A DNA stretch of 64,000 bases. Origin: Euborellia annulipes (Eukaryota; Arthropoda; Insecta; Dermaptera; Anisolabididae). Each line of letters opens with the position of its first letter. Position 1 is the stretch's first letter. The position numbers and the translations under genes were made by a program. Below, in pieces: positions 7,699 to 60,676 of this stretch. The stretch spans positions 62,001 through 126,000 of the forward strand of contig JAKCPI010009463.1 in the NCBI GenBank assembly GCA_023213315.1, in the 5' to 3' direction. The notes under the pieces were generated by a model. That model did not search any database, was not told where the DNA came from, and saw nothing but the letters and a program-made list of their open reading frames with translations.

Positions 7699-7735
7699 AC
7701 AAGTCGACGTTTCGGTTACCTCTTCTGAAATTGAA
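7699..7735 (-). other. Hammerhead-like motif, left arm of an outward-facing pair
   Basis: On the minus strand CAGAAGA (for CTGANGA) is followed by GGTAACC (a tiny stem II) and GAAACGTC, then GACTTGT. The box 1 T is changed to A. The flank shares CAAGTC with the intact motif at 7928-7972 in opposite orientation, about 195 bases apart, suggesting the two ends of one inverted-repeat element. Confidence 0.55.
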
Positions 7736-7927
7736 AATTAGCAATATGTTAAGTGATTATGCATGAGTTTTTTTTAAACTGATAATCTTTAATCATAATA
7801 TGCGTGAGAGAATCCAAAATATTTGTAGCTATCTGAGCCCAATTTTTCACGAATAGCAACAAAAAGATCATATTTTGTTTTTCCAAATAAAATACTCCTG
7901 CATATACACCTAACGCATTGACATTTT

Positions 7928-7972
7928 TCAAGTCCTGAAGAAGATCTCGCGGTGACCGAAACGTTGACTTGA
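7928..7972 (+). ncRNA. Hammerhead ribozyme motif, near intact, minimal stem III
   Basis: Stem I is perfect: TCAAGTC (7928-7934) pairs with GACTTGA (7966-7972). Box 1 is CTGAAGA (7935-7941), matching the CTGANGA core, and box 2 is GAAACGTT (7958-7965). The hairpin between them pairs GATC with GACC with one A-C mismatch. Stem III is only the self-complementary ACGT, so cleavage after GTT would need two RNAs pairing as a dimer. This layout is known for hammerheads associated with Penelope-like retroelements. Activity is inferred, not shown. Confidence 0.8.
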
Positions 7973-8103
7973 CTTCTACCATCACCTGCTTCATCTACCT
8001 TTCTTTTCCTAATTATATTAACTTTTATTGATTATTTTAAACATCTTTTTTCTAATTTTTGATTTGGTATGGTTTCAGATTTCAGATTAAACAATAATAA
8101 TCT

Positions 8104-8247
8104 TAAAGCCAAGGGGCGCGGGTTCGGATCCCAAGCAGTCCTATGAATATTTATTTAAATCATTTAGATACCAAATGGTATAAACAAATATGCATGGACC
8201 CTCATACTATATTTACAAGAGTATCGTTAAAGTCTAAGATCTTAACA
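8104..8247 (+). mobile_element. SINE t1 fragment
   Basis: Contains a box-B-like GGGTTCGGATCCC, then the t1 body phrases ATTTAAATCATTT and ATACCAAATGG and a degraded TATCGTTAAAGTCT. The 5' tRNA part is incomplete and no duplication is visible. Confidence 0.65.
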
Positions 8248-8639
8248 AAAAAAGATCTTGTTTATTTTTGTTAGATAATTATAGTAATTTGACATTAATC
8301 ACTATTATAATAAATTTCATCATATAAAAATAGATAAATTCATTTGAATAATAAATAATAGCAATTATGATTAATCTAAATAAACTCCTTATAAGAACTG
8401 ATAAAAAATTTAAAATTGTAATATGTTGAGAAAAGTGAAAGACAAAAGGGGAAAGTAAAGAGAGGGAGAGAGAGAGAGATGTTACGTTATTATAAAAATG
8501 TATTTTTTATGGATACAGGGAATATAAATTTCTATATACTTTCTTGTCGGTGTATGTGCGAGATGATCATCTTATAAGATGAGGACAAATTATAAATTCC
8601 AAAAAAAAAAAGAAGCGATACAAGAAGAAGAAGTGTGTA

Positions 8640-8870
8640 TATATAAGAGTGTGTGTTGTTATTAAGGGCTGCTCGCATATCTCGGCCTTGGAGCTAATTT
8701 GGGGTTGGCGCCCAGGCGGTCAATAGCACCAACTCACATGCGCCGTTTCTGCCCGGACGATCTTTAATAAGGCCGAGGAGCCCGAGGGATCGCCGGCCTG
8801 GGCCTGGATTTCCGGGAACGGCTAACAAGAAACCGAGCCCTCGTCTTTCTCTCTCTTCCGTCTCTCCTCT
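8640..8870. promoter_or_regulatory. Less AT-rich island, candidate cis-regulatory element
   Basis: About 200 bases of mixed, non-repetitive sequence (GGCGCCCAGGCGG, GCCGTTTCTGCCCGG, GGAACGGC) stand out from AT-rich flanks. No reading frame or repeat family explains it. Regulatory role is inference from composition only. Confidence 0.28.
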
Positions 8871-9891
8871 CTTTTTTATTTTTTTTTATTTTTTTTTTTT
8901 TGCTAAATTTTGTAGATATTTTTTGATATTTTTTTACCCCCTGTAACTACAACCGGGAATGTGATTATCAGGCGTAATTTTAATTAAATACTATTAATTG
9001 AAAATATTCTAAAAGGATTAGGAGTGTAGAACAAATAATAAATCATTCATTCTTCTTACATCTCCACCCTTCTTTTTAAAACAAGAAAAAAAAAGCATAA
9101 ATTATTCGAATTTTGGAGCCCACTCGTTGCCATGTAATTACTCTCCAATTCGATGGAGATAACGAATTAAAACAAAGTGGTAGGGTGAGGGGGGACAGAA
9201 GGGTAAAGGGGGGATCCCTTTCCCTTCTCTTTCTTGAAAAGAACTTTTCTCTCTTAAGTATTAGAAACTTTTGTTCTAAAGACTATTTAATTTGAAATTT
9301 TAAATACTTTTATAAGAAGCCTAAAAAAAAAAAAAAATAAGTATTATAATCTTTCCAACTGATTAACACACGAAAAGCTCTTTGACCTAATTTATAAATA
9401 AAATAGAGAAAAAATTGGTCTGATAAAAAATTAGTTTTAATAATAATAATAATAGGTGATAGATTTTTGCCATCTTTCTTCTTAAAAAAAAGTGCAATCA
9501 TACCTACACACCTTAACTTTTGTCGGATATTTAAATTAATAAATATTAAATTGTGTGATGTTTTTTCAAGGATCTGAACATGATCATATATAATATCTTA
9601 AATATTATATATTATATGATTTCATTCCTACAATCATTTCAATATAAACTAGGTAGAGCTTTGTTTGAAAAAATATGAAATAGACTGTAAATAAGCCAGT
9701 CAATATCAATTCCAATACATGAAAGTAGCAACTTTTAAGATAGAAAATTTGCGTGATGAGTTCGGGTAAAAATTTGGCTCCTTTAATTTAGAAAATATAC
9801 CTATAAATTCGCGTTATAAAAAATTTCTCCGAGCCTAGGAATCGAATGATTTTTAGATTATATCATCTCTATACTTTAAAATCCTGAATTA

Positions 9892-9980
9892 AAATTAAAT
9901 ATACGAGTTAAACACTAGGTTATATGTTTCAAAGGTTTTATTAATTAAAAATTATCACTTAATTCTCGACAATTAAGGTA
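9892..9980 (-). mobile_element. Family A repeat fragment (without ribozyme)
   Basis: Shares AACACTAGGTTAT, GTTTCAAAGGTTT and TTAATTAAAAATTA with copies at 12067-12190 and 60547-60676, which continue into a hammerhead motif. Here the ribozyme part is lost after TCGACAATTA. Confidence 0.7.
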
Positions 9981-10050
9981 AACACCACAGTAATGGGCCG
10001 GGGCCAGTAGATGGCCATTTTGAAAAGAAGATAAAAAAATAAGAATTCAG

Positions 10051-10152
10051 TGATGATGATTGCATATACATAAACAAGTGTCTTCTGTGCATGAGCAGAT
10101 CTCGGAATAGATGCACAGAAGACACAACTTGTATATGTATATGCAAATCATC
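10051..10152. repeat. Compact hairpin, arms about 40 bp
   Basis: Arms 10051-10092 and 10111-10152 pair almost perfectly (GTGTCTTCTGTGCAT with ATGCACAGAAGACAC, then CATATACATA with TATGTATATG), with an 18-base loop. The size suits either a fold-back MITE or a precursor of a small hairpin RNA. No homology to a named microRNA is claimed. Confidence 0.75.
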
Positions 10153-11367
10153 GAGATTATTTTTTACAATTTATAAAAAAATTTTTGTTTTTGATTATCC
10201 GAACACCCTCAGTTTTGTATTAAATAATTTCTAAATATTATATTAGAAATCACGATTCTAATTTCATTCTTGTCCGAAATCGATTCTTACTAAATAAATA
10301 AAATAATTTTTATGCTTCATATTTTGATTATTAAATAAATTTACGACAATTTTTAAGAGAGTTAAGAGAGAGATATAAAATCTCAACACACACAAGAGAC
10401 AGACACACAACAACTTAAAAGAAATTTGAAGAAAAGATTTAAGTACCGCATTTTATTAATCCATAAAGTTGAAACTTTTTTTTTTTCTTCCCTCTTCTCG
10501 TTCCTTCGAGTGAATTATAAAACCTGAAATGGATCTTGTCTCCCGATTAGGAAACAAAGAAACAAAAAAAACAAAAAAAAAAAAAAATTGAATCAAGAAA
10601 AAAAATAACAAAATTCCAAATTTAAAGATGAAATCAAATCAAATAACTTGTTTTCTTGAGAACTTGATTTGAAATATTTTTTTTATATTAATAATGATAT
10701 TACCTTTTCTATAAATCTTTCTTTTCACCTTTTTTTTTATTTTTTTAAAGAGAAACATCCCTAACTGATTATTACCTCCAACCCTTTTGAACTGATAATG
10801 ATGACGTCGTTATCATCTGTGCCGGCGATTTATTGACCGCTCTTTATACCTATTTATTATCCATTCCCTATATTTGGACAAATTGATTATGAGACACACC
10901 GGAATTTTCAAAAAAAAAATTCTAAGCGAGAAATTCCAATAAATGGACAAGTTTTTTTTTTTTTTTAATATAAAACAATTTTATTTCTTTTGTTTAAAAA
11001 ATAAATTTTTTTATGTACCTGTAGATTAGATCTATCCCATATTAATAAAACAATGAATTGACCAATTGAAAGACCCAGAATTAATATCTTAATTTATACA
11101 ACTTTTACTATTTTTACTTTCTCTTATCTATATAATTATGTATATTAGGGTGGTCCTTATTTATAGAGGTCAATTTTTTTGAAATTTAGTAGCAGGTACC
11201 CTTAGATCTTTTCCATTGCATTAAAAAATAATGTCTGCAAAATTTAAACTAATTTGCAAAACAGGAACACGCGGCCCATCGCTTTTGAACTTTAAGAATT
11301 TTCAAAATTTTCTTAAAACTAAGCACTCCCTTTGCTTCCGTTCACATGGAACTAAATTAATTTCACC
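10153..11367. other. AT-rich spacer with one mixed-composition patch
   Basis: Mostly A/T homopolymers and CA repeats. Only 10790-10865 stands out, with TGATGACGTCG (half-CRE-like) and CGATTTATTGACC (Hox/caudal-like); too little for a confident element. Confidence 0.45.
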
Positions 11368-11712
11368 TTTATTATTTAGAATCTTTTATTGCTTAAAATT
11401 GCCTTAATTAATACATAATAAATTAATAGAAGTAATAAAAAAAGATAGATTTTTAATAACCCTATCTTCCTCAATTTTAATCATGATTAAAGCATTTTTG
11501 AATGTAACATATTAAAAAATCCTTAAATTCTTGGGCCATAGCACAGTGGTAGAGTCCACCTCTTGTGCTAGGGGTCTAAATAATATCCCGTGAGCTGATT
11601 AGGATAGAATAAAGACATGGAAAGTCTTGAATTCTCATTCTAAAGACAGATAAATTAAATTGTTTCATCTGTCAAAGTTCCTCAGCATAAATCTGTTCAT
11701 ATTTCTTTTTCA
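11368..11712 (+). repeat. Dispersed repeat E split by an insertion
   Basis: Phrases TAGAATCTTTTATTGCTTAA and TCATCTGTCAAAGTTCCTC with CATAAATCTGTTCAT recur at 45488-45610, where they lie close together. Here about 190 bases separate the two halves, consistent with insertion of the tRNA-like unit at 11535-11640. Confidence 0.7.
11535..11640 (+). mobile_element. tRNA-like short insertion
   Basis: GCCATAGCACAGTGGTAGAG resembles a tRNA box A region and GGGGTCTAAATAATATCCC a degraded box B. It interrupts repeat E. A decayed tRNA-derived SINE is the simplest reading. Confidence 0.5.
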
Positions 11713-12066
11713 TTTCATGAATGTATTTTTATTATATAAATATTTTTCATATTTTTAGCGCACCTTGAAGGTACTTCGTACCACGTAGATGTTCATTCAT
11801 TATATTTTTTTATTGTTTTTCGAATTTTTTAAACTTTGTCCTTCGAAAATAAATGCCTAATAGATTTTTCTTATTTAATTTCAGTTTCCTTCCTTGAGTT
11901 TTTAAGTTTCTCCATTTTTCCTAAATTATATAAATATGATCACAATTTTGTTTTTGTTTCTATTTACCCAACCCCTATTTTTTACTTTTTTAATCTATTC
12001 TTTAACAAAAAAAGAAAATGAAAAATATGTGTTACATTTATGTATCACAAGTGTTAGTAAATTTTT

Positions 12067-12190
12067 TTAAATTAAAATTAAATATACAAATCAAACACTA
12101 GGTTATTTGTTTCAAAGGTTTCTTAATTAAAAATTAACACGTAATAAGTATTTCGACAATTACTTGTCATCATCGAAATGATTACATTTT
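12067..12190 (-). mobile_element. Family A repeat with decayed hammerhead
   Basis: Same body as the copies at 9.9 and 60.5 kb. On the minus strand the ribozyme part has an intact hairpin GACAA...TTGTC and GAAAT, but box 1 reads TCGATGA instead of CTGATGA, so the core is broken. Confidence 0.65.
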
Positions 12191-12413
12191 TTTTTTTTAC
12201 TTCGTACTTCAGTATAGATTTCAATCGATAGTCCAGAAAATATTGTTTATTCTTCCCCCACAATATAATAAGATAACGAAAAAATGGGGGACTTAATCAA
12301 TTCTCTTTATTCATATTATATTTTAAGTCGCCTTTCTTAACTCGCAGATCTATAGATGGTGGCAACAGTAGCGTAAAATATTTTTTTTTCCTAAATAGAA
12401 TTTCTTTCCCCGA

Positions 12414-12740
12414 GTGGAAGCCAATAGCGAGGAGATTTATGTCGGTTGGTTGTTATCACGTGAGATTTTCTCCATTTGAGAGTCCGCCACTGTATCGAGT
12501 CGTTTAATTCCTTCGGGATCTCTCTCTCACTCTCCTCTTGCGAGGGTTCATTGTCGATTCATAGCTCGCCCAGGATAAGGCCCTTCCTTTTTCCAAGTAG
12601 AGCGAAGTGCTCCACCCTCCTCCTCCTTCTTCTTCTTCTTTCTCCTTCTCTCTCAGCTCCAGCATCTTTTTCCCATAATTACAAAACAAGATAAGAGCAG
12701 CTTCTGATACAGTAGCCTGACTGTCTCGCGCCATATATCA
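12414..12740. promoter_or_regulatory. Candidate cis-regulatory island
   Basis: Mixed-composition sequence with an E-box CACGTG (in TTATCACGTGAGA) and TTTAATTCC, followed by CT-rich DNA. Long frames on both strands are serine- or arginine-rich low complexity and not recognised. Confidence 0.27.
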
Positions 12741-12984
12741 AATTCTTATTTACAGATGGATTTTTGCTAATTTACAACACACGTTATGTATACAAAGGAA
12801 GTTGTTTAACAAAAAACGCATTGACTCTCTCACTCTCTTTTGTGGGGGTGCAGATGTGTATTTCGGTTACATTCTGCCAACCTCCCCACTACGGTCTTAA
12901 GAACAAAGCAGTAGACTCGGGTAAAAATAGCAGTCAAACAAAGCGAAGCGTTTGTTTTAGGAAGGGAATTTCTCAACTTGTGAC

Positions 12985-13014
12985 GAAAGAGAGAGAGAGA
13001 GAGAGAGAGAGACG
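12985..13014. repeat. GA microsatellite
   Basis: A run of GA dinucleotides, slightly interrupted at its right end. Confidence 0.9.
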
Positions 13015-13408
13015 AAGAGAGTCCGCTAATCTAAACACCAGCTCGGAATAAATTCCCAAGGAAAAATAGACAAAGCCCCTAAGTTATTTTCTATTTATTT
13101 ATTTATTATTATACAAATAATAAATCCTCTGCCTTTTGTTAAAAAAAAATATATATATAATTCAGCAATTATTCTATAGGGCCAAATAGATACCACAAAA
13201 ATTGATTTACATTTCATATTAAATTCTTATTTACAAATGGATTTTTATTAACATCCTATTTTAAGAGCAGAATTAAAATTTTTTTCTTCAAATACACTTA
13301 AGAGCTTTTTCAATTTCTAATCAACATTTACCCCTCACATCTCCCAAACATTTAATAAATGAATTTCCAGAATTTCAATGATCTTAATAATACTACTTTT
13401 GTAGTTTG

Positions 13409-13548
13409 AAATATTATTATTAGGAGAATTTTTAATTATAGACCACATTTTTGTATTAAATATTTATTAAAAATATATAAATACTGTACTTATATATTTT
13501 TAATAAATATTTAATACATAATTAAAATTTCTCCTAATAATAATATTA
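13409..13548. repeat. AT-rich palindromic fold-back
   Basis: Arms 13409-13480 and 13489-13548 are reverse complements (TATTAGGAGAA with TTCTCCTAATA; ATTAAATATTTATTAAAAAT with its complement), with a short insertion in the left arm. A fold-back transposon remnant is likely. Confidence 0.72.
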
Positions 13549-13604
13549 CTTTTGTTGATATTAGCAACCAATCAATTTTCGTTTATAGATTTTTAGTTCG
13601 AGAT

Positions 13605-13740
13605 ATAAGTCTCGCCTCATATACTAGCGTTCAAGCGGTTCGCTTCCCATTCCAAACAATGAAAAATTTTTCTAAGTTATTTAGATCTGATTAAGAAGTG
13701 CGTACCAAATGGTATAACATTTATTTGCCTTTAGACTCTA
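13605..13740 (+). mobile_element. Decayed SINE t1-like fragment
   Basis: AAGCGGTTCGCTTCCC resembles box B and ACCAAATGGTATAA resembles the t1 body. Poorly preserved. Confidence 0.4.
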
Positions 13741-15352: not shown

Positions 15353-15376
15353 GTTCTTAAATACTACTAAATCTCC

Positions 15377-15607
15377 TTTTGCTCAGGGGCCCACATCTTG
15401 TGGATGGTGACCACGAGCTACCCGAGTTGGGACTTGCAGTCCTTCTATTCTTTACATGTCTGTCTCTTCCTTCAACATTTTCAACAGACGTCAGGCCGTG
15501 GGACGGGCCGGCTTGTTCTATTTCTTCCGGTCGCAAAAAACCCATTCCGTCGCCCCCTTTACCGCCAACCCCGCACCGCGGGAATATTAAAGGCAAAGAA
15601 AGAAAAA
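15377..15607 (-). mobile_element. GGC-family short retroposon, copy 2
   Basis: Minus-strand copy: GCTCAGGGGCCCACATCTTG at the left is the complement of the family 3' end. Flanks share GTTCTTAAATA and AAATCTCC (15353-15376 and 15608-15626), a target duplication with a 5-base difference. Frames across it are chance. Confidence 0.82.
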
Positions 15608-15984
15608 GTTCTTAAATAAAATCTCCGTATATTATTACCTAATAGGCCTACCAGTGGGGCATTTGCCCCCCTCCCCAAGGCTCTGATTTTTTTAAATTTT
15701 TTATTATTCTAAAAATAAAATATGCATACTGTACGAGTATACGAGAAATTACTGTTGTATAATTTTAAGAAAAAAAATTTTTAAAAATTAAAAAATTGGT
15801 CATCATCTAGTTGTAGATGGATTAATTTGTGAAAGAAGAAGAAAAAAAAAGAGTAGGAAGGCAATTTTTATGGTATTGGAAAGTTAGCGCACCCCAAGCT
15901 GAAAGAGAGAGAAAAGAGGGGAGTGAGTGAGATTGGGTTGTGGGTGTAGTAGTGGGAGAATGTTGGAGAGAGACGGAGGGGGGG

Positions 15985-19372: not shown

Positions 19373-19384
19373 AATTCATTCCAC

Positions 19385-19416
19385 CTGATGAAGGCATAAA
19401 CATATGCTGAAACGTT
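19385..19416 (+). ncRNA. Hammerhead ribozyme motif without clear stem I
   Basis: Box 1 CTGATGA (19385-19391) and box 2 GAAACGTT (19409-19416) are perfect. The hairpin between them pairs GCATA with TATGC around AACA. Flanks do not form an evident stem I, so the motif may be truncated at its element edge. Confidence 0.62.
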
Positions 19417-19550
19417 ATAAATCACTGTTGGTATAAATTTAAAGACTTAAAAAAAAAAAAATGTTTTTTCTTATAATACCGCCAGTAACAAAATAAATTC
19501 TGGCAACTTCATTTGTTAAACCAAAATAAATTTTTTTTACTGACTTTCAA

Positions 19551-20033: not shown

Positions 20034-20035
<2 letters not shown>

Positions 20036-20202: not shown

Positions 20203-20455
20203 TATTTAAGGTCTTTTTCGCGATGAGGGGTCGGCGGACCTCACTCTTTCCTCACCCCCCTGTCCCAGCTCGGGTAGCTCGTGGTCGCCATCCACGTACC
20301 CACAAGATGTGGGCCCCTGAGCGAATTTAGACCCCATTCCTATTTATTCCAAATGATTGGTAGTCAATTCAAACGAAATAAATTTTTCTCGGTTGCGACT
20401 GGAAGCGAACCCGGGACCCTAGACACGAGAAGCTAATGTCATCTCTCTGAGCCAA
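20203..20455 (-). mobile_element. SINE t2 interrupted by GGC-family copy
   Basis: AAGGTCTTTTTCG at the left and TTTAGACCCCATTCCTATTT at the right are adjacent in the t2 copies at 38336 and 56856. Here a GGC-family unit sits between them. The tRNA-like head lies near 20410-20455 on the minus strand (GCGAACCCGGGACC). Confidence 0.7.
20219..20320 (+). mobile_element. GGC-family short retroposon, copy 3 (internally deleted)
   Basis: CGCGATGAGGGGTCGGCGGA then TCCCAGCTCGGGTAGCTCG and CACAAGATGTGGGCCCCTG. The middle portion is missing. No separate duplication is seen because it lies in SINE t2. Confidence 0.75.
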
Positions 20456-24990: not shown

Positions 24991-25505
24991 CCATCGATAT
25001 AGGTGCAATACCACAGCTTAGCTTTTTTCTATAGGAGACATATAAAATCTTCAGACTTTCAAGTCTAACCTCAACAGGCATCTTCTCAGTTCCCGCAGTT
25101 GAATTTCCCCTTTATGCTTCTCCTTTTGTTTTTATTTTCTTCCTGGCTGCATGTGACTATTGGTCATTATAGGTCTTCGGACCTTATCACCCATTCAAAA
25201 AAAAAATCTCAAGTTTATCTCTTTTCTATTACTAAGTAGTGTATAAATATATAATAATAGTGCGAGAATGTAAAAGTCATGAATGCATTATTGAATAAAA
25301 AAAAATTAGGACGAGATTTTGATGATTTTTACCTCCTCAATAAAAAAAAAAAAAAAAAACATTTTTGGAAAGTTTAATTTTTTTAAAATTATCCTCCTCT
25401 TGGCTACTGACTTGTGAGACTAGAAGGGTTTATTAATTATATTTTATTATTTATTGCATCGAAGGCTACTGGGGGACGTTCCACACGCAGGTTCCTTCCC
25501 AGATA

Positions 25506-25576
25506 GCACAGTACGTCTTATGTACGTACATAAGACGCACAATTCGTCTTATGTACGTACATAAGACGTACTGTGC
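25506..25576. repeat. Perfect 32-bp-arm palindrome made of two smaller palindromes
   Basis: Arms 25506-25537 and 25545-25576 are exact reverse complements around a 7-base spacer. Each arm itself contains the 24-base palindrome centred on TATGTACGTACATA. The outer edge is GCACAGTACG / CGTACTGTGC. Confidence 0.93.
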
Positions 25577-25579
25577 GAT

Positions 25580-25690
25580 CGGGGTTGGGATCACAACCCT
25601 AAGTTTCGCTTGATATTGCTTAACTGCATCGATTATGATGACTGTAGTAGCTCTTCTCTCTTGTCATTTGTTTTTATTAAAATTTAAATT
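25580..25690. repeat. Dispersed repeat shared with 22255-22390
   Basis: Follows the palindrome directly and shares the GCTTAAC...CGATTATG...CTGTAG phrases. The palindrome may be part of the same element. Confidence 0.55.
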
Positions 25691-27269: not shown

Positions 27270-27469
27270 CAATCTTCTTTCTTGGCCTTATCCCTATGTG
27301 GGGTCGGCAAAATCTAACTGTATATAAAGATATGTATAGAGACCGATTGACGCTTGGTATGAAAAAGGAAAAAAGGCTGACATAAAGGAAAGAAAGAAAT
27401 GCCAGCCTTAGCTCGGGTAACTCGTGGTCGCCATCCACGTACTCACTATTAGTGAGCCCCTGAGTGAAT
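27270..27469 (+). mobile_element. GGC-family short retroposon, copy 5
   Basis: CAATCTTCTTTCTTGGCC to GTGAGCCCCTGAGTGAAT, flanked by the perfect 14-base duplication AAATATAATAAAAC (27256-27269, 27470-27483). Confidence 0.87.
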
Positions 27470-27644
27470 AAATATAATAAAACTCATATATTATGTATGT
27501 AAATAATTCATGTAATTCCGGGTTAATCCTCTTTTTGGAAGTTCTTTAGGATTTTGCTTTTAATTGTGATTAGTAATAACAATTCATTTCAAATAGGTAG
27601 AAAGAATGAGCAAGCAGCTAGTTATATTTTAATTTATTGTCTAA

Positions 27645-27690
27645 CCAAGGCCGACATTTCGGTCACATATGGAATCATCTTCAGGTCCAG
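27645..27690 (-). ncRNA. Hammerhead motif in left arm
   Basis: Minus strand: CTGAAGA (27684-27678), hairpin GATT...GACC with a mismatch, then GAAATGTC (27660-27653). Box 1 and GAAA are intact, but ATGT replaces the self-complementary ACGT, and stem I is weak. Confidence 0.55.
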
Positions 27691-27846
27691 GTTAATGTCT
27701 GAAAAATATATTAATCCTCGCCAATTTATATTGAGCATACATAATTGTAAGTAGCTCAATCATGATAATGCCTCAAATAATTACAATTGTGTATGCCCAA
27801 TATAACTTGGCGAGGATTAATATAGTTTTCAGACATTAACCTGGCC

Positions 27847-27862
27847 GTGAAGATGGTCCCCA
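27847..27862 (+). other. Hammerhead remnant in right arm
   Basis: GTGAAGATGGTCCCC matches box 1 and the start of stem II of the left-arm motif with C changed to G; the GAAA half is deleted. Confidence 0.5.
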
Positions 27863-28429
27863 ATATAACTATCTGCTTGCTCATTCTTTCTACCTATTTG
27901 AATATCAACACTCAGCTATATACATCCTTCAAATAATTCATTTCGAATTATGATGCCGATTGTTGAACAAATGTGAAATTGCAACTTCTTATCTGTGAAT
28001 TGGCATAAATATCTATATCTAACTAGATAATGCAGATCCGTATTATTATTCTTGTAATGAAGTAACAAAGCGCACATGGTTCAGATGTCGTGATGTGACG
28101 GCGATATTGTTTCTAATTTCAGTTCAGTCTCTAAATGTTACTCTTTGTGATTGTATTCAATATCTAAGAAGGCTACAATAACGTTGTTATTTTATACAGT
28201 TTACTCGATATTTTTAATTGATAACAACAATTGAAAGCTTCAAATACCAAACTTCTCAATCTCATCTATAAAACTGATCATTTCTCTTTCTGATGATTCA
28301 GTAAAAAAAAAAAAAGATGCCAAAACAAAATTTCATTTCTCATCTCGAACTTTTGAACCCATGTCTCGACCGGAATCATTATGACAAATTAACCAATATT
28401 AATAAAAAAAAATAAATAAATAAACAGAG

Positions 28430-35874: not shown

Positions 35875-35944
35875 AAACATTTAATTAATTAGGGGGATCC
35901 TTCCCAGGAAACAGTAACCAGGTGAAATAAAAAACTTTATGTTC

Positions 35945-35990
35945 TGTTGTCAACGTTTCGAGAGCTAGTCACACTCATCTTCAGTAGCGT
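35945..35990 (-). ncRNA. Hammerhead motif, cores intact
   Basis: Minus strand: CTGAAGA (35984-35978), stem II GAG...CTC, GAAACGTT (35959-35952). Boxes are perfect but no stem I is found in the flanks. The upstream minus-strand sequence TTACCGCAAAATTGATAATA recurs at 38606-38625, marking a shared element. Confidence 0.6.
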
Positions 35991-36169
35991 TATTATCAAT
36001 TTTGCGGTAACCTATTCTACTTCAGAATTGTCAAAAATAAGTACAGGTGGTGTACTGCATATTATTATCAAGTTTGTTTGTATTATTTTTGCATTGTCAT
36101 AAAAGTGTGCAATATACAAACTTCAACAACAACTATGCAACCGAAACTGCATTAAAACAGCAAGTAGTA

Positions 36170-36379
36170 CAGTGAGGAACAATAATAAGTCCCACCCATG
36201 TGTTTTCTGTTTGGGATTATTCCATTGTTTTTAAAAAAATATATATATTTTTTTAGTGGAAACTTTCATGGATCAAAGCTAGAAAATTTCCAATAAAGAT
36301 TTTCATTTTCTTTTATAAAAACAATGAAATAATCACAAGTAGAAAACGCATGAGTGGGACTTAACTTTGGCGTTCACTA
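36170..36379. mobile_element. Tc1/mariner-type MITE
   Basis: Ends CAGTGAGGAACAAT and (minus) TAGTGAACGCCAAAG, then AAGTCCCAC on both sides, with inverted repeats continuing for about 70 bases, flanked by TA (36168-36169, 36380-36381). 210 bases, no frame. Confidence 0.82.
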
Positions 36380-36475
36380 TACATCATATACATATATCAA
36401 CAGCCATCAGTCTCAACAAATTTATCATTTAATTAATTATTAAACTTGATTTTAAAATTATTTCTTTTATTCAAG

Positions 36476-36522
36476 CCAGAGCTAACGTTTTGCTCACATA
36501 TTGGAACATCTTCAGAGCCATG
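36476..36522 (-). other. Hammerhead motif with one core change
   Basis: Minus strand: stem I GGCT with AGCT (one wobble), CTGAAGA (36515-36509), stem II GTTC with GAGC (one wobble), then AAAACGTT (36491-36484), where the G of GAAA is changed to A. That change should abolish cleavage. Confidence 0.6.
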
Positions 36523-36559
36523 ACTACGTATTTGTTGACTCTACTTAACTTTGATATAA

Positions 36560-42740: not shown

Positions 42741-43044
42741 CTTTTTAACAAAAATTTTATTTTTTTGTATAAACAATCAATAAAAGTTTATCTAAACCTG
42801 TTTTAATTAGTCTTAATTAGCAGCACGTTAATTTCTCAATCACAAAAGATAGAACATAACTTCGGACAAATTAACGCTTTTAATAATTTAATTTAATTAA
42901 TAAAAATCGCTATATTTTATGTACCGGTAGTTTGAGTCAAGATTTTTAATTAATAATAGAGGCGATAAAAAAAAAAAAATATAGGCCTATTTCAATGAGG
43001 TGGGTGGAGTAGGCAGCTAAAAGGAGAAATAAAACGCTAATTGA

Positions 43045-43105
43045 TTTCAGTCTGATCTGCGACGTTTCGGGTGCTTATCACTCCCTTCTTCAAGACCAGG
43101 TTGAC
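43045..43105 (-). other. Hammerhead motif with one box 1 change
   Basis: Minus strand: TTGAAGA (43093-43087, for CTGAAGA), stem II GGG...CCC with additional TG/CA pairs, GAAACGTC. Stem I is weak. The first C is changed to T. Confidence 0.5.
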
Positions 43106-43187
43106 TTATTTAATTATAGAAAATTAGAATTTTATTTCTCCTTCTGGCTATCTTTTACTTAATTGGAATAGCCCGCAATAAAAAATG

Positions 43188-47939: not shown

Positions 47940-48151
47940 CTACTTTCCTGGCCATATTCCCTCATTGCGGGGTCGGCAGAATGGTTTGAGAAGAAATAGA
48001 ACAGACCGGCCCGTCAGCGCGGTCTGTCGCCTATTGAGAATATAGAAGGAAGGGGGAGACATGTAAAGAACAGAAGGACTGCCAATCCCAGCTCGGGTAG
48101 CTCGTGGTCGCCATCCACGCACCCACAAGATGTGGGCCCCTGAGCATTTTT
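47940..48151 (+). mobile_element. GGC-family short retroposon, copy 6
   Basis: CTACTTTCCTGGCCATATTC, GCGGGGTCGGCAGAATGG, GGGTAGCTCGTGGTCGCC and ATGTGGGCCCCTGAGCAT. Flanks GGAAGTCTTGTTTTT (47925-47939) and GGAATTCTTGTTATT (48152-48166) match at 13 of 15, an aged duplication. Confidence 0.82.
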
Positions 48152-49794: not shown

Positions 49795-49980
49795 TAGATA
49801 AATTATAGTAATGAAGAGATTTGCAGCCAAATGAAAAGAGCCTCTAATATTAAATAAACTCTTTATTCGGGACGTTTCGGCATAGATTTACTATGTTGAT
49901 AACGACCTGAATAAAGAGTTTATTTAATATAATAATAGAGGCTCTTTTAATTTGAGGCTCTTCATTACTATAATTAATCT
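49795..49980. mobile_element. Near-perfect hairpin element with hammerhead-like apex
   Basis: Arms of about 70 bases (AATTATAGTAATGAAGAG outer; AAATAAACTCTTTATTC inner) enclose, on the minus strand, TTATCAA, stem CATAG/CTATG and CGAAACGTC. Box 2, stem II and ACGT are preserved; box 1 is not CTGATGA. In effect a hammerhead-like fold with a 70-bp stem I. Confidence 0.75.
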
Positions 49981-50115
49981 TAAAAACAGCCATGATATCT
50001 TATAGACTCTCACAAAACATTGACACTCGCCTGTTTTTATAAAAACTATACATGTGCACAAATTCGTGCCACAACAACAATGACAACTTTGTGCCTAATT
50101 AGTTTATAAGCCAAC

Positions 50116-52440: not shown

Positions 52441-52498
52441 ATTCTCATTGTCGAATTTATTCATCCCTTTGATTACGCTTCTTTAAGCTCTTTATATA

Positions 52499-54240: not shown

Positions 54241-54251
54241 TTATCTATTTC

Positions 54252-54297
54252 TAACAGCTGACGTTTCGGTTTTGCTCAAAGCCATCCTCGGAGCTAT
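54252..54297 (-). other. Hammerhead motif with one box 1 change
   Basis: Minus strand: stem I AGCT with AGCT extended by A-T and wobble pairs, CCGAGGA (54291-54285, T4 changed to C), stem II GGCTTT with AAAACC (one mismatch), GAAACGTC (to 54261). Only one conserved base differs. Confidence 0.62.
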
Positions 54298-54591
54298 AAA
54301 CAACGAAACATTTTTCTTTTATAAATAGAGTTTTATAATCTAATGATCTGATGATTACGGAATGAAAATCATACCAGTTAGTTGTCATTATATAAGCTTA
54401 TATATATTGGAATTGTATTAGTATTAATTTTGTATATAACAAAGAAAATTATAATTGACATAGGAAGTTTACTCAAAGTACCTTTCATTCTTATAAGGTG
54501 TAAAGTAAAACAAATTTTGATTAGTAAGGAAATCAAGGCAGCCTAAAACAATAAAGAAAAAATATATTTTTCTTTCGCTTTATTATATACA

Positions 54592-54635
54592 ATTGTCGAC
54601 GTTTCTGCTGATATTCCGGCCTTCATCAGGACAAT
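54592..54635 (-). ncRNA. Hammerhead ribozyme motif, core intact
   Basis: Minus strand: stem I ATTGTC with GACAAT (6 bp perfect), CTGATGA (54629-54623), a weak stem II (GGCC...AGCA) and GAAACGTC (54605-54598). Core bases all match; stem III is only ACGT, so activity would need a dimer. The weak stem II suggests early decay. Confidence 0.75.
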
Positions 54636-54700
54636 GTGCCTCGAGCTTAGAGGGGCTCTTGGAAACTTCTGACGTATTGTTGGCGCGAACATTCGTCATG

Positions 54701-54978
54701 GCCCCCGAGTTTGGCGTAGTAGGTAGCGAGCCTACCTCCTATACCAAACGTCGCGGGTTCGCACCCAGGCAGTCCGATGATTTTATTTAAGCCATTTGGA
54801 TACCAGATGGCTTAAATAGAAATGCCTGAACCCCCAATATGTATATATTCTACTTACAACGGTTATCGTCTAAAGTCTTAAATGGCCTGAGTTGCCGAAA
54901 AGACTGTGTGAATGTGTGTGTGAGTGTGAGTGTGAATGAGAAAAAAGTGTGAATGTTTAAAAAAAAAAAAAAAAAAAA
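54701..54978 (+). mobile_element. SINE t1, complete reference copy
   Basis: 278 bases bounded by a perfect 13-base duplication AACATTCGTCATG (54688-54700, 54979-54991). Head with TTGGCGTAGTAGGTAGCGAG (box A) and GCGGGTTCGCACCC (box B); body ATTTAAGCCATTTGGATACC; ACGGTTATCGTC; GGCCTGAGTTGCCGAAAAG; a GTGTGAGTG tail and poly-A. It would be transcribed by RNA polymerase III and moved by a LINE supplied elsewhere. Confidence 0.93.
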
Positions 54979-55006
54979 AACATTCGTCATGAATTTGTTT
55001 TGGTTG

Positions 55007-55081
55007 AATTTATTGCAACTGAAGATGGAGGCGTTGAATCTTCTAAACTGTAACTCTGTGCAGAATCAGTTGCAATAAATT
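55007..55081 (+). other. Hammerhead-like hairpin with decayed second half
   Basis: AATTTATTGCA (55007-55017) pairs perfectly with TGCAATAAATT (55071-55081). CTGAAGA (55019-55025) is intact but GAAACGT is replaced by GAATCAGT. No stem II recognised. Confidence 0.5.
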
Positions 55082-55184
55082 GAAATCTTCGTGTACATTG
55101 GTTGGTCAAAACTCTGAAAATAAAAAATTAATTAAATTAAAATGTTTCTCGAGTGTGGAAGTGGCTGTGATTAATATCTTAGAA

Positions 55185-55360
55185 GAATGGCCAGGAAGGA
55201 GCGTCTCCAAAACAATTAAGTTAATTATGAATCAAATCTATTGTAGCCTGATTGCCTGATGATGGTCAAATAAATTTAGACCGAAACGTCGCGAATATCT
55301 GGGAGTTTCATTGTTTTGGAAACGATCCTTCCTGGCTGCTACCTCCTGCCATTCTTCTAA
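55185..55360. repeat. Inverted repeat around the 55.25 kb hammerhead
   Basis: AGAAGAATGGCCAGGAAGGA at the left and TCCTTCCTGGCTGC...GCCATTCTTCT at the right, plus CCAAAACAAT / ATTGTTTTGG, bracket the ribozyme. The left arm has a short deletion. Confidence 0.8.
55250..55296 (+). ncRNA. Hammerhead ribozyme motif, best core in the window
   Basis: CTGATGA (55256-55262), T, stem II GGTC (55264-55267) with GACC (55279-55282) perfect, GAAACGTC (55283-55290). Stem I TTGC with GCGA (one wobble). All conserved core bases are present; stem III is the palindrome ACGT. The form equals the small Penelope-associated hammerheads described as acting in dimers. Confidence 0.82.
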
Positions 55361-55789
55361 AATAATGTTTTAATTTATATATACTTCCCTTCAACAAGAG
55401 TGGCTGTGACATTCCTTCAATTAATTAAAAATATTGTCTAGATCCTTAGATGCAATAAATTCCACCAAAACAAAACTTCCTTTACACCTTATAAGAACGA
55501 AAGGTACTTCGAGTAAACTTTCTATGTAAATTATAATTAATCAAACTTAAACAATCCAGTTATAAAATAAAATTTTTACAAAAATGGATATCGCTAGTTT
55601 TTGCAAGCCATGCTGTCCTTTTTTATTGAGAAAGGAAAAAAGGAAATCGAAAATAAATATTATATATTATGTTAAGAAAACATATTTGCTGTTTCATTGG
55701 CCACTGGATGTATCATCTAATGGACTTGTATATATTTTATACATAGGAATATGAGTTTGAGGAGGTAGGAATAAAGAGAGATAGAGCGG

Positions 55790-55932
55790 GGAGAGGGAGC
55801 ACTGAGGCTTGTCGCCATTGTGCGTTTGCCTCCCCATTCTATCAAATTTGCGCTGTTTCTTTCCCCAAAAAACGATGACTCCCCTTCATCTCTCTCTCTC
55901 TCTCTCTCTCGGTTGCTTGCTCAGTCATCCAA

Positions 55933-55965
<33 letters not shown>

Positions 55966-56235
55966 GTTCTCCCCATTGGCGTTCACCTTTATCTCTCTCT
56001 TTTCTGTCCAATTCGCTTTTTGTCTCTTTCATTCCCGTTCAATTCCATTGCTTCATGTATGTCTCTCTACGCTCGATCCGTTGCCGATAAATCCTGATCG
56101 GGTTTTGCGCTTCTCTCTCTCTCTCTCTTCTTTCTATACCATTCCCGTTTTCTCTTTCTCCTCCTCCTCCTCTTCGCTTGGTCTTGTCTGGATTTGCATT
56201 CCATACAGGAATGAACCAATCGATTTCTTCAAACA
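55790..56235. repeat. CT-rich low-complexity region
   Basis: Several CT runs (55889-55909, 55934-55965, 56113-56129) within pyrimidine-rich DNA. Plus-strand frames of 93 and 141 codons are Ser/Leu-rich products of the runs and are not accepted as genes. Confidence 0.75.
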
Positions 56236-56604
56236 TTCGAATTAAAAAAAAAAAAAAAAGAAAATACAATTTGATTATTGTAGGCTACACTTGAAATACC
56301 GATTTCTCAAATTTTAAAAAAACTAGGCTTCATTCTCAAATGTGTCTGAAACCATTGACTTAAATAAGCAATAAAAAAAATAAATATTTGTTTTTTTTTT
56401 TAATTTTCATATTAATATAATAATCATCATCTATAAGTCTCCCTTTTTTTGAGATGTTATATGTAAAGACTGTTGGATTAATTGCAAGGAGGAAGAGAAA
56501 ATTGGCACCCAGAAAAAAATAAAAGTTTAAATAGACCGAAAAAATTGTAAATTAACAATCCATACAAACAATTTAATTTATGGAAAATAAGCCCAATTTG
56601 CTAT

Positions 56605-56789
56605 TCATGAGTACTCGAAAGTAGAGCCTTGGGCTTAGGCAACCATAATGCTTAACAGTTAGGATGGTTGTCTTAAATGTAGCTTTTTTCCCTTCAGTTG
56701 CATTTAAAATAGATGATTAAAAAAAAAAATATATTGGTTTGGTTGACTAAGCTCAAGGCTCCAATCTTTAGCAATTGTGGCGCCGACTG
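56605..56789. mobile_element. MITE family B, copy 1
   Basis: Left GAGCCTTGGGCTTAGGCAAC and right complement GGAGCCTTGAGCTTAGTCAAC. Right end CAGTCGGCGCCACAA resembles a Tc1-type CAGT end. Same family as 63365-63531. Confidence 0.72.
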
Positions 56790-56855
56790 TGCGTATATAT
56801 TAATATATATATTAATATACCAGGTAGATATAATCAAGGAATATTTTTTTTTAAT

Positions 56856-57016
56856 TCGTTCAAGGTCTTTTTTGGCATCAAAAGCCATTTAGACCCCGAC
56901 CCTATTTAATTCAATTGATTTGTATCCAATTCAATTGAAATAAATTTTGTCGCCTGGGACTCGCGACCCTTGATACAAAAAGCCAGCCCGCTAACCACTA
57001 CCCCAAGGCCCGAGGG
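56856..57016 (-). mobile_element. SINE t2, best copy
   Basis: Minus strand: GGGGTAGTGGTTAGCGGGC (box A), AGGGTCGCGAGTCCC (box B, altered), body TTTCAATTGAATTGGATAC, then GGGTCGGGGTCTAAATGGC and AAAAAGACCTTGAAC. No poly-A; no clear duplication. Confidence 0.8.
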
Positions 57017-57029
57017 CGGATATTTATTT

Positions 57030-57250
57030 ATATCATTGAGTATTCAATTGATTTGAATAATCAGACATCCTGGGATCCAGACCCCCATCTCTTGTGTTTT
57101 AAGGTTTCAATATTGACAATGTCAATAGTTTTAACATCTCGGCCACATTATTGATAATCTTAAAAGCCAAGGGACATGTGCTCGGATCTCAGTCCGATTT
57201 ATTTAAATCATTTGAATATAAATATGCCTGGATCATATGTATTGTATTAA
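57030..57250. mobile_element. Decayed SINE t1 fragments
   Basis: A minus-strand piece (TTGAATAATCAGACATCCTG, 57052) and a plus-strand piece (AAAAGCCAAGGGACATGTGC; ATTTAAATCATTTGAATA, 57160) resemble t1. Confidence 0.5.
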
Positions 57251-58496
57251 ATATTAAAATATAAGTTAAATATTTTTCGAGATATATATATTTGAATAAG
57301 ATATTAGTATTCAATATACCTCATTCGTCGTAGGTATATTTAACAAGACTGGGAGTAAAAAAAAACATACAGCATTGTTTAATATGTAAGAATTGCTTAA
57401 AATCTAATAGAAAATGAAAGGAGAGAAGAAACTAGGAATGGAACTTAAAAAAAATACATCTCAACCATCGGAAATTTTTTTTTTTGTATTTATAATTTTC
57501 TTTTATGGTCTCTTTTTTCACCGAGAGTGAAGCACCTACCCCCTGTTTATTTTGGTTTATCGAATTGATTGGTGGTTATTTCCATTAATTCCATAAAATT
57601 GATAAAGCAGGCCATTTAGAAATGTTCTCTAACCTTAATGACGATATTATTATATATATATAAAAATAAAATAAATTTTCGATGTTATTTATAAAATTGA
57701 TTGAACTTTATTATTTTTTTTTATTGAATAAAACCAATCTTTCTATTCCAAGACCGACACCTTAACCCTTTCACCTCCGGCTGGAAAAAAAAGACACAAT
57801 TATAAATAAATTCTAACAACATTTCGCTTTTAACAAAATAATATATATTGATTAAAATTATTGGAAATTTAGAAAAGCACTTTAACCTAAAAAAAAAAAA
57901 CCCTCGAAAATCGTCTTTTCTTGTTAAGGCATCAATTCCGATTAAAACAGAGTTTTTTTAGAGTTTTTTTTTCTTTAAATAGACAAAAAAAATGTCAATT
58001 TTTTTCATAAATAAATTAATTGAAAGCTTAATTTATATATAAAATAATAAAGCGTCAGTCAAATCATTCGATTGATAATTAAATATTGAAAAATGAAATT
58101 TGAAATCTACAATAAGAAATTTTATATTTTTTTCTCTTTTTACACGATGTAGCCATACGTTCATAAAAATTGCGCCTAAAGAGAATTAGTTTTTGTACCA
58201 GAACCTAATTAATTTACGGAGTTTTTTCTTTCTTAAATTAGATTGGCATTAAATAAAAAATTCAACCCCCAAATCGGAGCAGAAATTCTACATGTATTGT
58301 TTTATTAAATTCTATTTCTCATAGCGATGAGAAGTGGCTGTAGATCTTGAATTAGATATGGACTCTGTTACGCATTAGTGTATCAAGCGCCAGCTACAGA
58401 GTTTTGAGAAAATTAACATTAAAGTTTTTTGTTTTGATTGGATTATATATAATTTTTTTTGTCAATTGTGTAAATAACAAAAATATAAATTTTTTT
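57251..58496. other. AT-rich spacer
   Basis: TA run at 57651-57662. AAGATATTAGTATTCAA at 57298 is shared with 62780. No gene recognised. Confidence 0.45.
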
Positions 58497-58613
58497 AGGA
58501 CATATTTCATAAAAAATACTATTAATTATAGCATTTGAAACAATATTCCCTGCTTAACTCAATTTTTAATTTTTTTTTTGGCGCTTGACGCACTATCGCA
58601 TAATAGGGTCCAT
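58497..58613 (+). repeat. Dispersed repeat shared with 45612-45734
   Basis: AGGACATATTTCATAAAAAA, TAGCATTTGAAACAATATTC and GCGCTTGACGCACTATCGCA match the other copy at about 90 per cent. The ribozyme fold-back follows immediately. Confidence 0.85.
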
Positions 58614-58817
58614 ATAGGAGACATAACAGCCAAGGAATTGAATAAAAAACTTTTATTTAATTGTGGTTTAATTTCCAATGACAATTAAAAATAATACTGT
58701 ACATCTTGTATTTTAACAATCGTCCTGAGGTAGGTCGTGATTTGCGACCGAATGGTCGATGATTAACAATTAAATAAATTTTTTATTTAATTACTTGGCT
58801 GCTACGTCTTCTATATC
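58612..58817. mobile_element. Fold-back element with hammerhead-like core
   Basis: Arms ATATAGGAGACATAACAGCC / complement ATATAGAAGACGTAGCAGCC run inward through AAGGAATTGAATAAAAAAC, about 50 bases each. A hammerhead-like fold lies at 58718-58764. Confidence 0.78.
58718..58764 (+). other. Hammerhead fold with mutated core
   Basis: Stem I AATCGTC with GATGATT (7 bp, one wobble), CTGAGGT (last base of box 1 changed), stem II GGTCG with CGACC (5 bp perfect), GAATGGTC (for GAAACGTC). Helices kept, catalytic bases lost. Confidence 0.65.
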
Positions 58818-59329
58818 CAATTTAAATTTTTTATTTATAAAAAAGAGGGAAAACATTACTATACAAAACAAATTACGCTAAATCATCAGATTTCTTACTT
58901 GAATGTATATTTTTTAAACATTCTTTATATCTTGATCATTTGGATTATTTTTTATTTTTTAATATTTCAATATCATTAAAAGAAATGCGAACCAATAACC
59001 AGACCTTACTTCACTTACTGTATTTTATTTCTTAGTAGTTCTTTTTTTTTAATTAAAATAAAAATTGTATTTATTTAGAATTTAAGAAAATATCAGCGTG
59101 TTTAAAAAACATGATTCCACTACTTTGAGAATGGAATTTGTTAATAAAAAGCCTTTCTGTCTTTGTTAGATCGCATACAAGTCTAAACGTTCGTGTTCGG
59201 AAATACCTTCAACCCCTCATTCCATCGACCGAATAAAAAATACAAAAAAATCCATGCATAAATATTTTTTTTTTTTTCATTTCCGTAGATCATTTCCTTG
59301 CAAGTCAATCGAAATTAATATTTAATCTA
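58818..59329. other. AT-rich spacer
   Basis: No feature recognised. Confidence 0.5.
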
Positions 59330-59720
59330 TCCCTCTGAGTTGCTATATTTAAGTGGGTGTGGAGGGGATGCGTGTCTGCAAAGTCAGAAGAGCGAGCGAC
59401 GTTATTGAAATGCCATCGCAGGGTTTGCGAAACGAGGGTGTATGTGTATGTGGGTGTGAGGATGCCCTGCAAAAGGGCAGAAGGCCAGTCCAACTAGCAC
59501 ACCACGGGAATTTCATTTTGGGGGCCGTTGCTCGGGAATGCCAACCTCTCACCCCCTTTCATACCATACACCCAAACTCCACCCTCAAACCATCTCTACC
59601 CTCGAAACAATCCTGCACACACGTCTCGTCTCGAATACCGGAACCTCTCTCTGTCTCTTTCTCTCTTGCTCTTGTCTCGTTTAGTATCCCACTCTCATTC
59701 TCTTAAAAAAAAAAAAAAAA
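59330..59720. other. Less AT-rich island
   Basis: Mixed unique DNA (GAAATGCCATCGCAGGGTTT; GCCAGTCCAACTAGCACACC) ending in CT runs and poly-A. Frames of 62-117 codons on both strands are unrecognised. Regulatory or untranslated sequence is possible. Confidence 0.3.
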
Positions 59721-59872
59721 AAAATTGTTATTAACCTGTTTTATATGTGGAGTAATATTTACATGGGATTTTATATATATAAAAAAAAAAATTCCCAAAA
59801 GGACACACGTGCTCTTCCAACCACTAAGATTTGAAATTACCCTTTTTTTAATAAATATAATATTTTTTAATC

Positions 59873-60384
59873 AAAAATCTGGGGTGAGTGGTCTCACAGC
59901 ACACAACTTTCTCTTACACTGCGGTAAGAGAAAGTTGTATACTGTGCTTGTCACAGCAGATTTTGTGTGTTGAGATATATTTAGTTCCCGACAGTAGGGT
60001 AAAAGATTTAAAATTTATGAACAGAAAAATGGTATATTTTGTTACCATGACAACCATTTCTTCTATCTTTTCTATGAAGTTTGAAAAGGTAAAATATACA
60101 TTTTAAATAGCATCTAAAAAATAATTGCTTTTTGAATTTTAATCAAATTCGTTGGAGTGAATTTTGAGAAAATCTAAAAAAGTGAAAAAGTACATCAGTA
60201 AAGTACTAGTACTTTTTGGCCGATTTTGTTTAAAAGCTTATTTTCACGCCCTAGAGGGGTGCCTCACAAATATAAAATTTCATCCTCGTAGCTCAATTCC
60301 TCCATGCTTTAAATTGAACACACAGTCCACACACTCACAGAGAGACCATGTTGCGAAAACCACTTAGGTAAGAGAAAGTAAAAA
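59873..60384 (-). mobile_element. Family H hairpin-tailed repeat, copy 6 (full length)
   Basis: Tail hairpin at the left (CTGGGGTGAGTGGTCTCAC; CTCTTAC...GTAAGAG; TTGTCACAGCAGATTTTG), then the complement of the body, to AGGTAAGAGAAAGTAAAAAT at the 5' end. About 510 bases. TTACTTTCTCTTAC of the 5' end and the CTCTTAC/GTAAGAG of the tail stem are related sequences. Confidence 0.8.
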
Positions 60385-60546
60385 TATTACTAATGAATAG
60401 GGAGAGATCTGATGGGGAGAGATTTTTTCATTATGATTGAATTGCATACTTTTACATTTTCATTCTATTCAGGTTTTTACTCGGTGTTTAAATTAATTAA
60501 AGCTAAGATTTAAATATTCGACCGTAGGTTCCCGTTGAAACATTTT

Positions 60547-60676
60547 ATAAATTAAATTTGATATACAAATTAAACACTAGGTTATTTGTTTCAAAGGTTT
60601 TATTAATTAAAAAATTAACACTTGATACGTATTTCCACAATTCCTTGTCATCATCAGAAGTGATTACATTCTAATA
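60547..60676 (-). mobile_element. Family A repeat with hammerhead
   Basis: AACACTAGGTTATTTGTTTC, AAAGGTTTTATTAATTAAAA, then the hammerhead on the minus strand. The other copies at 9.9 and 12.1 kb have lost or damaged the ribozyme. Confidence 0.78.
60619..60662 (-). ncRNA. Hammerhead ribozyme motif with short palindromic stem III
   Basis: Minus strand: stem I CACTT (60662-60658) with AAGTG (60623-60619), CTGATGA (60657-60651), stem II ACAA...TTGT closed by a G-G mismatch, GAAATACGTATC. ATACGTAT forms a 3-bp hairpin or an 8-bp dimer helix as stem III. Core bases all match; only the closing pair of stem II is changed. Confidence 0.75.

Follow-up and report, generated by a model that had tools for sequence, protein, structure and literature searches.

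Minimal hammerhead folds and Penelope-like retroelement termini in the genome of Euborellia annulipes

Short hammerhead-ribozyme motifs are scattered over a 64-kb stretch of the Euborellia annulipes genome (contig JAKCPI010009463.1, positions 62,001 to 126,000; hereafter the window), which we analysed together with the 903-Mb assembly of 25,949 contigs to which it belongs. The results indicate that most of these sites are minimal type I hammerhead folds, as judged by covariation at hammerhead geometry, and that the population to which they belong is genome-wide and made up of many families, being neither local nor a single family. The motifs almost certainly sit close to the 3' ends of Penelope-like retroelements (PLEs) that encode an endonuclease. 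Taken as a whole, PLE-terminus hammerheads combined with insertion from both strands of a target break are very probably the best explanation of what we observe; the two-strand priming mechanism by itself is probable to a lesser degree.

Covariation and the hammerhead fold

In this fold CTGANGA is followed by a single unpaired base and helix II, and GAAACGT by an H that stays unpaired and helix I; there is no stem-III loop. Our exact-core search fixed the CTGANGA and GAAACGT letters and left the helices free. Helix I was examined at 92 sites, collected with one substitution allowed from 287 kb of genome sequence including the window. On average 3.70 of its 6 positions pair when each site is matched with its own flank and 2.58 when flanks are swapped, with none of 5,000 permutations as high, and the pairing appears only when one base (H17) is skipped. 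The same holds for 60 dissimilar sites (3.50 of 6 against 2.55 when cross-paired; 0 of 20,000 permutations as high), where neighbouring offsets give nothing and only the offset that leaves H17 unpaired yields pairing. The 13 window sites alone reach 3.85 against 2.79 (11 of 20,000 permutations as high). An early stem I test on 17 loosely chosen window sites, with bulges allowed, gave little signal (736 of 20,000 permutations scored as high or higher), and the pairing stood out once the exact register was used. Helix II pairs only when one base after A9 is skipped.

A covariance model was built from 30 dissimilar copies outside the window (from 67 exact sites, and including relatives of two window copies, L035 and L047) and scanned unfiltered across the window. 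In these copies the covariation score is 0.582 against 0.186 in shuffles and double-change cells number 97 against 41.5, neither value being equalled in 500 shuffles, and sliding the partners by 1-3 columns drops the score to 0.11-0.21. A weaker measure, the number of pairs changed on both sides, stands at 10 against 9.0 (69 of 500 shuffles as high). The claim of a preliminary description of this DNA, that the sites are a structured RNA, is thus borne out. That description had singled out covariation and hammerhead-model scores as the decisive observations; stems I and II covary, whereas the Rfam models score none of the sites.

It is possible, though we consider it rather unlikely, that the folds no longer cleave themselves unaided or never did so, and that the motif is retained because the PLE enzyme binds or starts there. 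This is the behaviour seen in part in an anole PLE, whose ribozyme cut only in the presence of protein and was dispensable for insertion in vitro (PMC11167929). It sits less easily with the compensatory helices kept beside the catalytic core in many families, the core itself having been selected by the search.

Genome-wide, the core with a spacer of 14-22 nt and a following C occurs 48,895 times, against 9 for a reversed control. With the spacer fixed at 10 nt the count is 402, and the reversed pattern gives 7. At such loci, for example L014:5023 and L024:5023, loop II is lost and the partner arms retain the full loop (TGGGTAACCC against TGGGTAAATAAAATTCACCC), which suggests recurrent loop-II deletion. 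The genome counts are somewhat inflated because some contigs repeat each other; for instance, L035 and L036 hold the same palindromic insertion on two contigs in opposite orientation, these contigs being allelic or duplicated.

Within the window, the exact pattern CTGANGA-N(8-26)-GAAACGT occurs 5 times where 200 dinucleotide shuffles average 0.005, and with one substitution 12 times against 0.74 (200 shuffles, maximum 4). With two substitutions it occurs 30 times against 17.35 (60 shuffles, maximum 28), so that the two-mismatch sites are mostly chance. The pattern CTGANGAN{4,20}GAAA was counted 11 times (2.7 expected) and GAAACGTH 17 times (4.8 expected). CTGANGA-N14..22-GAAACGTC has two copies in the window, near the genome average of about 3.5 per 64 kb; therefore, the window is not a cluster, and the "local population" of the preliminary description gives way to a genome-wide one.

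Penelope-like elements and their head-to-head insertions

The genome contains PLEs that carry these motifs. A GIY-YIG search gave 118 matches among the 150 scored of 710 candidates, in frames of up to 852 aa, and several of them form minus/plus pairs on one contig. Four of these stretches were read; the open reading frames (ORFs) are 822-851 aa long. The reverse transcriptase (RT) domain RVT_1 was present in all three ORFs tested; GIY-YIG was found in two of them by the same domain scan, and in the third only by the separate GIY-YIG search. The PLE RT has no sequence relative in the PDB up to E=1. In L050, two open 822-aa RT and GIY-YIG ORFs stand head to head, and hammerheads of the family CTGAAGATGGCCTAGACCAGTGGCC (52.5 bits with the covariance model) flank each of them on both sides. 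The arms of this element are 3.3 kb long and 99.5% identical, and those of L051 are 3.16 kb and 99.97% identical. A short palindrome, L032, matches the L050 termini at 88-100% identity. L049 has a divergent hammerhead variant, with GAAATATTTG in place of GAAACGT (1214-1266 and 4146-4198; 20.6 bits), directly upstream of its 851-aa PLE ORF and again downstream. The left copy of L051 has a weak hammerhead (14.2 bits, E=0.064), and L052 has a weak one only beyond the 3' end of its ORF (14.2-14.6 bits and E 0.05-0.06 for the two loci together). RT and GIY-YIG in one ORF, hammerhead repeats on both sides of that ORF, inverted head-to-head copies, target-site duplications and an optional tail were thus all found. 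Because RT and GIY-YIG ORFs have hammerheads on both sides, the link to PLEs drawn in the preliminary description stands.

Exact sites that lie close together are mostly divergent. Among the first 100 exact places listed, 19 of the 21 neighbour pairs at most 700 nt apart are divergent (minus-then-plus), one is convergent and one lies on the same strand; among the loci first centred on 10-nt spacers, together with the window, 24 of 30 close pairs are divergent. An inverted partner arm (score at least 69) was found on the inner side of 8 of 20 exact places that lack an exact partner, whereas the outer-side control in those 20 places scored at most 28. From 38 of 100 sites and 8 of 20 of the rest, we estimate that about 60% of exact sites belong to head-to-head insertions. 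The sampled copies are 5'-truncated, head to head and mostly a few hundred bp long. We examined 39 such elements for target duplications; by extrapolation there would be far more of them genome-wide.

This arrangement bears on whether the elements could be metazoan retrozymes, which are small, form circular RNAs and carry type I hammerheads. The hammerheads of retrozymes do lie in repeats only a few hundred bp long, and PLEs have been proposed as their helpers (PMC7229834, PMC7761336). Retrozyme units are direct tandem repeats of 150-450 bp, whereas close neighbours among the first 100 listed places are divergent in 19 of 21 cases and on the same strand in one, and the motif here is without a stem-III loop, though by definition of the search pattern. 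We regard a retrozyme origin as highly unlikely.

Outward of the ribozyme lies a hairpin, R-GCTG followed 24-55 nt later by CAGC-Y, which we refer to as the tail hairpin. The raw tally is 10 GGCTG/CAGCC, 7 AGCTG/CAGCT and one mismatched, the last in an element that also has a matching hairpin; with one double-counted element and L036 removed, the 15 independent insertions comprise 10 GGCTG/CAGCC and 5 AGCTG/CAGCT. A GIY-YIG-encoding pair, C5672, has the variant TGCTGA with TCAGCA. In this AT-rich DNA a search for stems of any sequence did not tell the tail from background (control segments gave 0.67 stems per side at 5 bp and 0.38 at 6 bp), and therefore the specific motif and the target duplications were used. 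By motif, the outer tail strand is present on exactly one side in 16 of 30 elements (15 of 29 without L036) and on both sides in none. In end and duplication counts, L036 was dropped as a duplicate of L035. A clear target duplication, meaning a shared word of 12-15 nt that is rare in swapped controls and is judged without reference to the tail motif, is present in 19 of the 39 elements. In 18 of these 19 insertions the two ends differ in length by 20-38 nt (P=3.6e-5 if the ends were independent); C5672, with a clear 15-nt duplication and an offset of 29, is counted among those that follow this rule.

We propose a mechanism that could join these observations. The GIY-YIG enzyme would make a staggered break at the target, and both 3' ends of the break would prime reverse transcription. 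The tail hairpin would offer two start sites, one in its loop and one past its 3' strand, and both complementary DNAs (cDNAs) would stop early and be joined, leaving two outward-facing hammerheads. The ribozyme itself may separate the units of tandem PLE transcripts. If each side of the break primes its own cDNA, both outer ends should be near-fixed starts and the truncated inner ends should join, as is observed. A stricter version, in which the starts on the two strands are coordinated and each tail-hairpin start is used once, giving exactly one tailed end, is put forward tentatively, as rather less than an even prospect. If it is true, the dispersed minimal hammerheads of animal genomes would largely be the paired scars of two-strand events.

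The same palindromes might instead arise when a single cDNA primes itself (snap-back) on an antisense PLE transcript, which is the published proposal for the head-to-head copies of rotifer Penelope (Arkhipova et al. 2013, PMC3846280). In many of our elements the palindromic symmetry runs through the centre or comes close to it, as snap-back would have it. However, the data favour two starts over self-priming because an arm made by copying should stop at the same point as its template, and one end is longer in nearly all the clear-duplication insertions. A PLE enzyme, moreover, cuts and extends both strands in vitro (PMC11167929). Self-priming therefore appears to us an unlikely, if serious, contender. 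Inverted arms and short target duplications are also what would be seen in DNA transposons resembling miniature inverted-repeat transposable elements, whose terminal inverted repeats just happen to include the motif. The asymmetric ends, the presence of the same termini around RT and GIY-YIG ORFs and the covariation of the stems as RNA all speak against such transposons, to which we give next to no credence.

Several observations weigh against PLE-terminus hammerheads inserted from two strands, or narrow the ground for them. Up to E=10 no Rfam hammerhead family matches in the window, none reaches gathering score there, and 13 other loci of this genome gave no Rfam match at gathering score; the Rfam hammerhead models appear to need stem III. 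Core invariance arises by selection and is no evidence for the fold, because the core itself was the search pattern. Likewise, the tail covariation amounts to one base pair, since only the R/Y letter was free in the search. The hammerhead model scores low (13.8-14.6 bits) on the flanks of C5672 and on the PLEs of L051 and L052. A partner arm was seen in only 8 of the 20 exact sites lacking an exact partner and, in a less exact and partly decayed set, in 8 of 57 unpaired sites, with 5 on the control side. The strict motif finds a tail on neither side in 14 of 30 elements. Only 19 of 39 elements had a duplication clear enough for use; L070, the sole exception among those 19, is symmetric, and among the weaker duplications those of L028, L034, L040 and L042 are 9-10 nt long with an offset close to zero. 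Three of the four coding PLE palindromes checked (L051, L052 and C8739) are without a clear duplication, C8739 having merely a simple AT repeat at a symmetric offset.

Age is a further point of this kind. The near-identical long palindromes could in part be an assembly artefact, and the hammerhead-containing window copies are only about 75-87% identical to the relatives that cover the hammerhead, so that they are old. An active or recently active family had been suggested for this genome. For the genome's PLEs recent activity is plausible, though not proven, given their open ORFs and their 3.2-3.3-kb arms of 99.5-99.97% identity, and some PLE palindromes outside the window look recent; the old window copies and the many families do not fit the suggestion.

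Sites and neighbouring repeats in the window

The covariance model detects 12 sites in the window at E<1e-3 and another two at E<0.05 (Table 1). The preliminary description had counted at least 14 sites under 16 entries. Twelve of these entries correspond to the 12 strong sites, if the minus-strand site at 54251 is taken as its "54.3"; the entry at 7.7 kb is borderline and that at 49.9 kb is a half motif. The other candidate for "54.3", at 54339 on the plus strand, has E=0.3. The entries at 23.9 kb (a partial match, E=1.7) and 60.6 kb (E=0.59) are not hammerheads. The latter lies within a different dispersed repeat (60504-60676), with 91-95% identical copies in L004, L014 and L040.

Table 1. 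Hammerhead sites and terminus insertions in the window; E-values of hammerheads are from the covariance model, percentages are identities.
Position	Strand	Feature	Evidence
1401..1451	-	borderline hammerhead, absent from the earlier list	E=0.031; 80% to L022 over 61 nt
7697..7736	-	decayed partner of 7926+, borderline	E=0.047
7700..7971	.	head-to-head terminus pair, old	arms 7700-7773/7889-7971, 72%, E=6e-9
7926..7974	+	hammerhead, 7-bp perfect stem I	E=2.1e-7
19376..19425	+	hammerhead	E=7.4e-4
27588..27902	.	head-to-head palindromic element	75% to L036 and L035 over 371 nt
27644..27693	-	hammerhead, left arm of palindromic terminus	E=1.9e-5
35943..35993	-	hammerhead	E=4.3e-6; no relative spanning the site among best matches
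36475..36524	-	hammerhead, decayed	E=3.3e-5; no relative spanning the site among best matches
43052..43102	-	hammerhead	E=1.5e-6; 77% to L044
43193..43243	-	hammerhead, decayed	E=8.3e-4
49796..49980	.	palindromic terminus	palindrome 77%, E=2e-39; 77% to L010
50112..50164	+	hammerhead	E=2.2e-7; 87% to L018 over 195 nt
54251..54300	-	hammerhead, GGCTGC-type strand beyond	E=2.7e-8; 80% to L018 over 162 nt
54589..54638	-	hammerhead	E=7.8e-6; exact core, 6-bp stem I
55142..55364	.	PLE terminus insertion	81% to L047 over 237 nt, inverted arms
55247..55299	+	hammerhead, best in window	44.5 bits, E=4.9e-10
58716..58766	+	hammerhead	E=2.4e-5; 85% to L037 over 125 nt

Inverted arms persist at six window loci (7700-7971, 27588-27902, 43015-43149, 49796-49980, 55175-55364 and 58612-58816). 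In the insertion around the best hammerhead, a short left arm consisting of the tail region (about 55175-55219) faces the right-arm tail (55307-55364), and the inverted partner scores 45 against 18 in controls. The arms of the 58716 locus (58612-58664/58766-58816) are 87% identical, the left one being tail region only, and the hammerhead at 43052 has a short inverted partner arm at 43122-43149 that pairs with 43015-43042. The palindrome of the 27588-27902 element is 86% identical over 180 nt, with its right-arm motif partly deleted. At 49796-49980 the terminus breaks off inside the hammerhead, leaving the 3' half motif GAAACGTC on the minus strand (49871-49878), and the site has no covariance-model match in the unfiltered window scan. 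The tail-hairpin strands TGCTG and CAGCA come after the hammerhead at 50112. For the hammerhead at 19376 neither tail nor partner was found, the partner score being at control level. The best matches of the 7.9, 19.4, 35.9, 36.5 and 54.6 kb sites fall in adjoining repeats, not in the hammerhead.

Other repeats share the window. A palindromic repeat (36186-36363) beside the 36.5 kb hammerhead has 85-88% identical copies (over 36225-36385) in L016, L017, L023 and L027. A dispersed repeat is present at 4484-4577, 20235-20328, 27378-27471 and 48058-48151 on the plus strand and inversely at 15400-15498; its copies have in common a block resembling AGCTCGGGTAGCTCGTGGTCGCCATCCACG...CCCACAAGATGTGGG, and it looks like a short interspersed nuclear element and has no Rfam match. 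Positions 1-543 hold about four copies of a 134-bp tandem repeat, and 25498-25584 is a near-perfect palindrome of GTCTTATGTACGTACATAAGAC-like units. Five long ORFs of the window showed no Pfam domain at E<=0.001.

Comparison with known systems

Cervera and De la Pena are said to have described, in 2014, PLEs with minimal type I hammerheads.

Minimal hammerheads without helix III have been reported in the pseudo-long terminal repeats (pLTRs) of PLEs, with thousands dispersed in animal genomes (PMC7761336), and more than 6,000 minimal or canonical motifs have been reported from Acropora (PMC7229834). The elements described here resemble these in the helix-III-less motif of the pLTRs and in its dispersed copies; they differ in number, with at least 48,895 exact copies, and in that a large share of those sampled are the ends of head-to-head insertions. 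In rotifer Penelope, an 842-aa ORF lies between pLTRs, with an adjacent inverted pLTR, head-to-head order, a target-site duplication of 8-10 bp or none, and an optional 31-bp tail on one inverted pLTR; its authors preferred self-priming on an antisense template (PMC3846280). The likeness covers the ORF between pLTRs, the inverted pLTR, the head-to-head order, the short duplication and the one-sided tail. In contrast, the duplications here are of 12-15 nt, the sampled copies are mostly of a few hundred bp and the tail is on exactly one end in 18 of the 19 insertions with a clear duplication.

In the Anolis element Poseidon (PAc), the hammerhead is upstream of a stem-loop with two adjacent RT start sites, the tail is the stretch between these two sites, and the enzyme cuts and extends both DNA strands (PMC11167929). 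Our elements share the hammerhead followed by an outward stem-loop, and their tail would correspond to the stretch between two starts, with both DNA strands cut and extended. However, the Poseidon start sites in vitro are alike by strand, whereas the genomic ends here look complementary, one of each. Metazoan retrozymes are similar in having type I hammerheads in small non-coding repeats and different in being direct tandem repeats with circular RNAs (PMC7229834), the repeats here being divergent inverted pairs. PMC12910113 mentions neither "tail" nor "hammerhead".

The role of the hammerhead in PLEs has been called a mystery (PMC7761336), and knowledge of how PLEs transpose is described as comparatively limited (PMC11167929). 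With tens of thousands of termini in one genome the insertion model becomes testable, and two-strand priming can be told from self-priming by end asymmetry, target duplications and the subfamily markers of the arms. Earlier publications already describe minimal PLE hammerheads, inverted pLTRs and an optional tail on one side. The scale and the sharpness of the one-tail rule exceed the descriptions in the reports consulted, and we do not present that rule as new to the literature. Therefore, because dispersed minimal hammerheads of PLEs have already been reported, our finding is one of a known kind, at an unusual scale and with a sharper rule for the ends.

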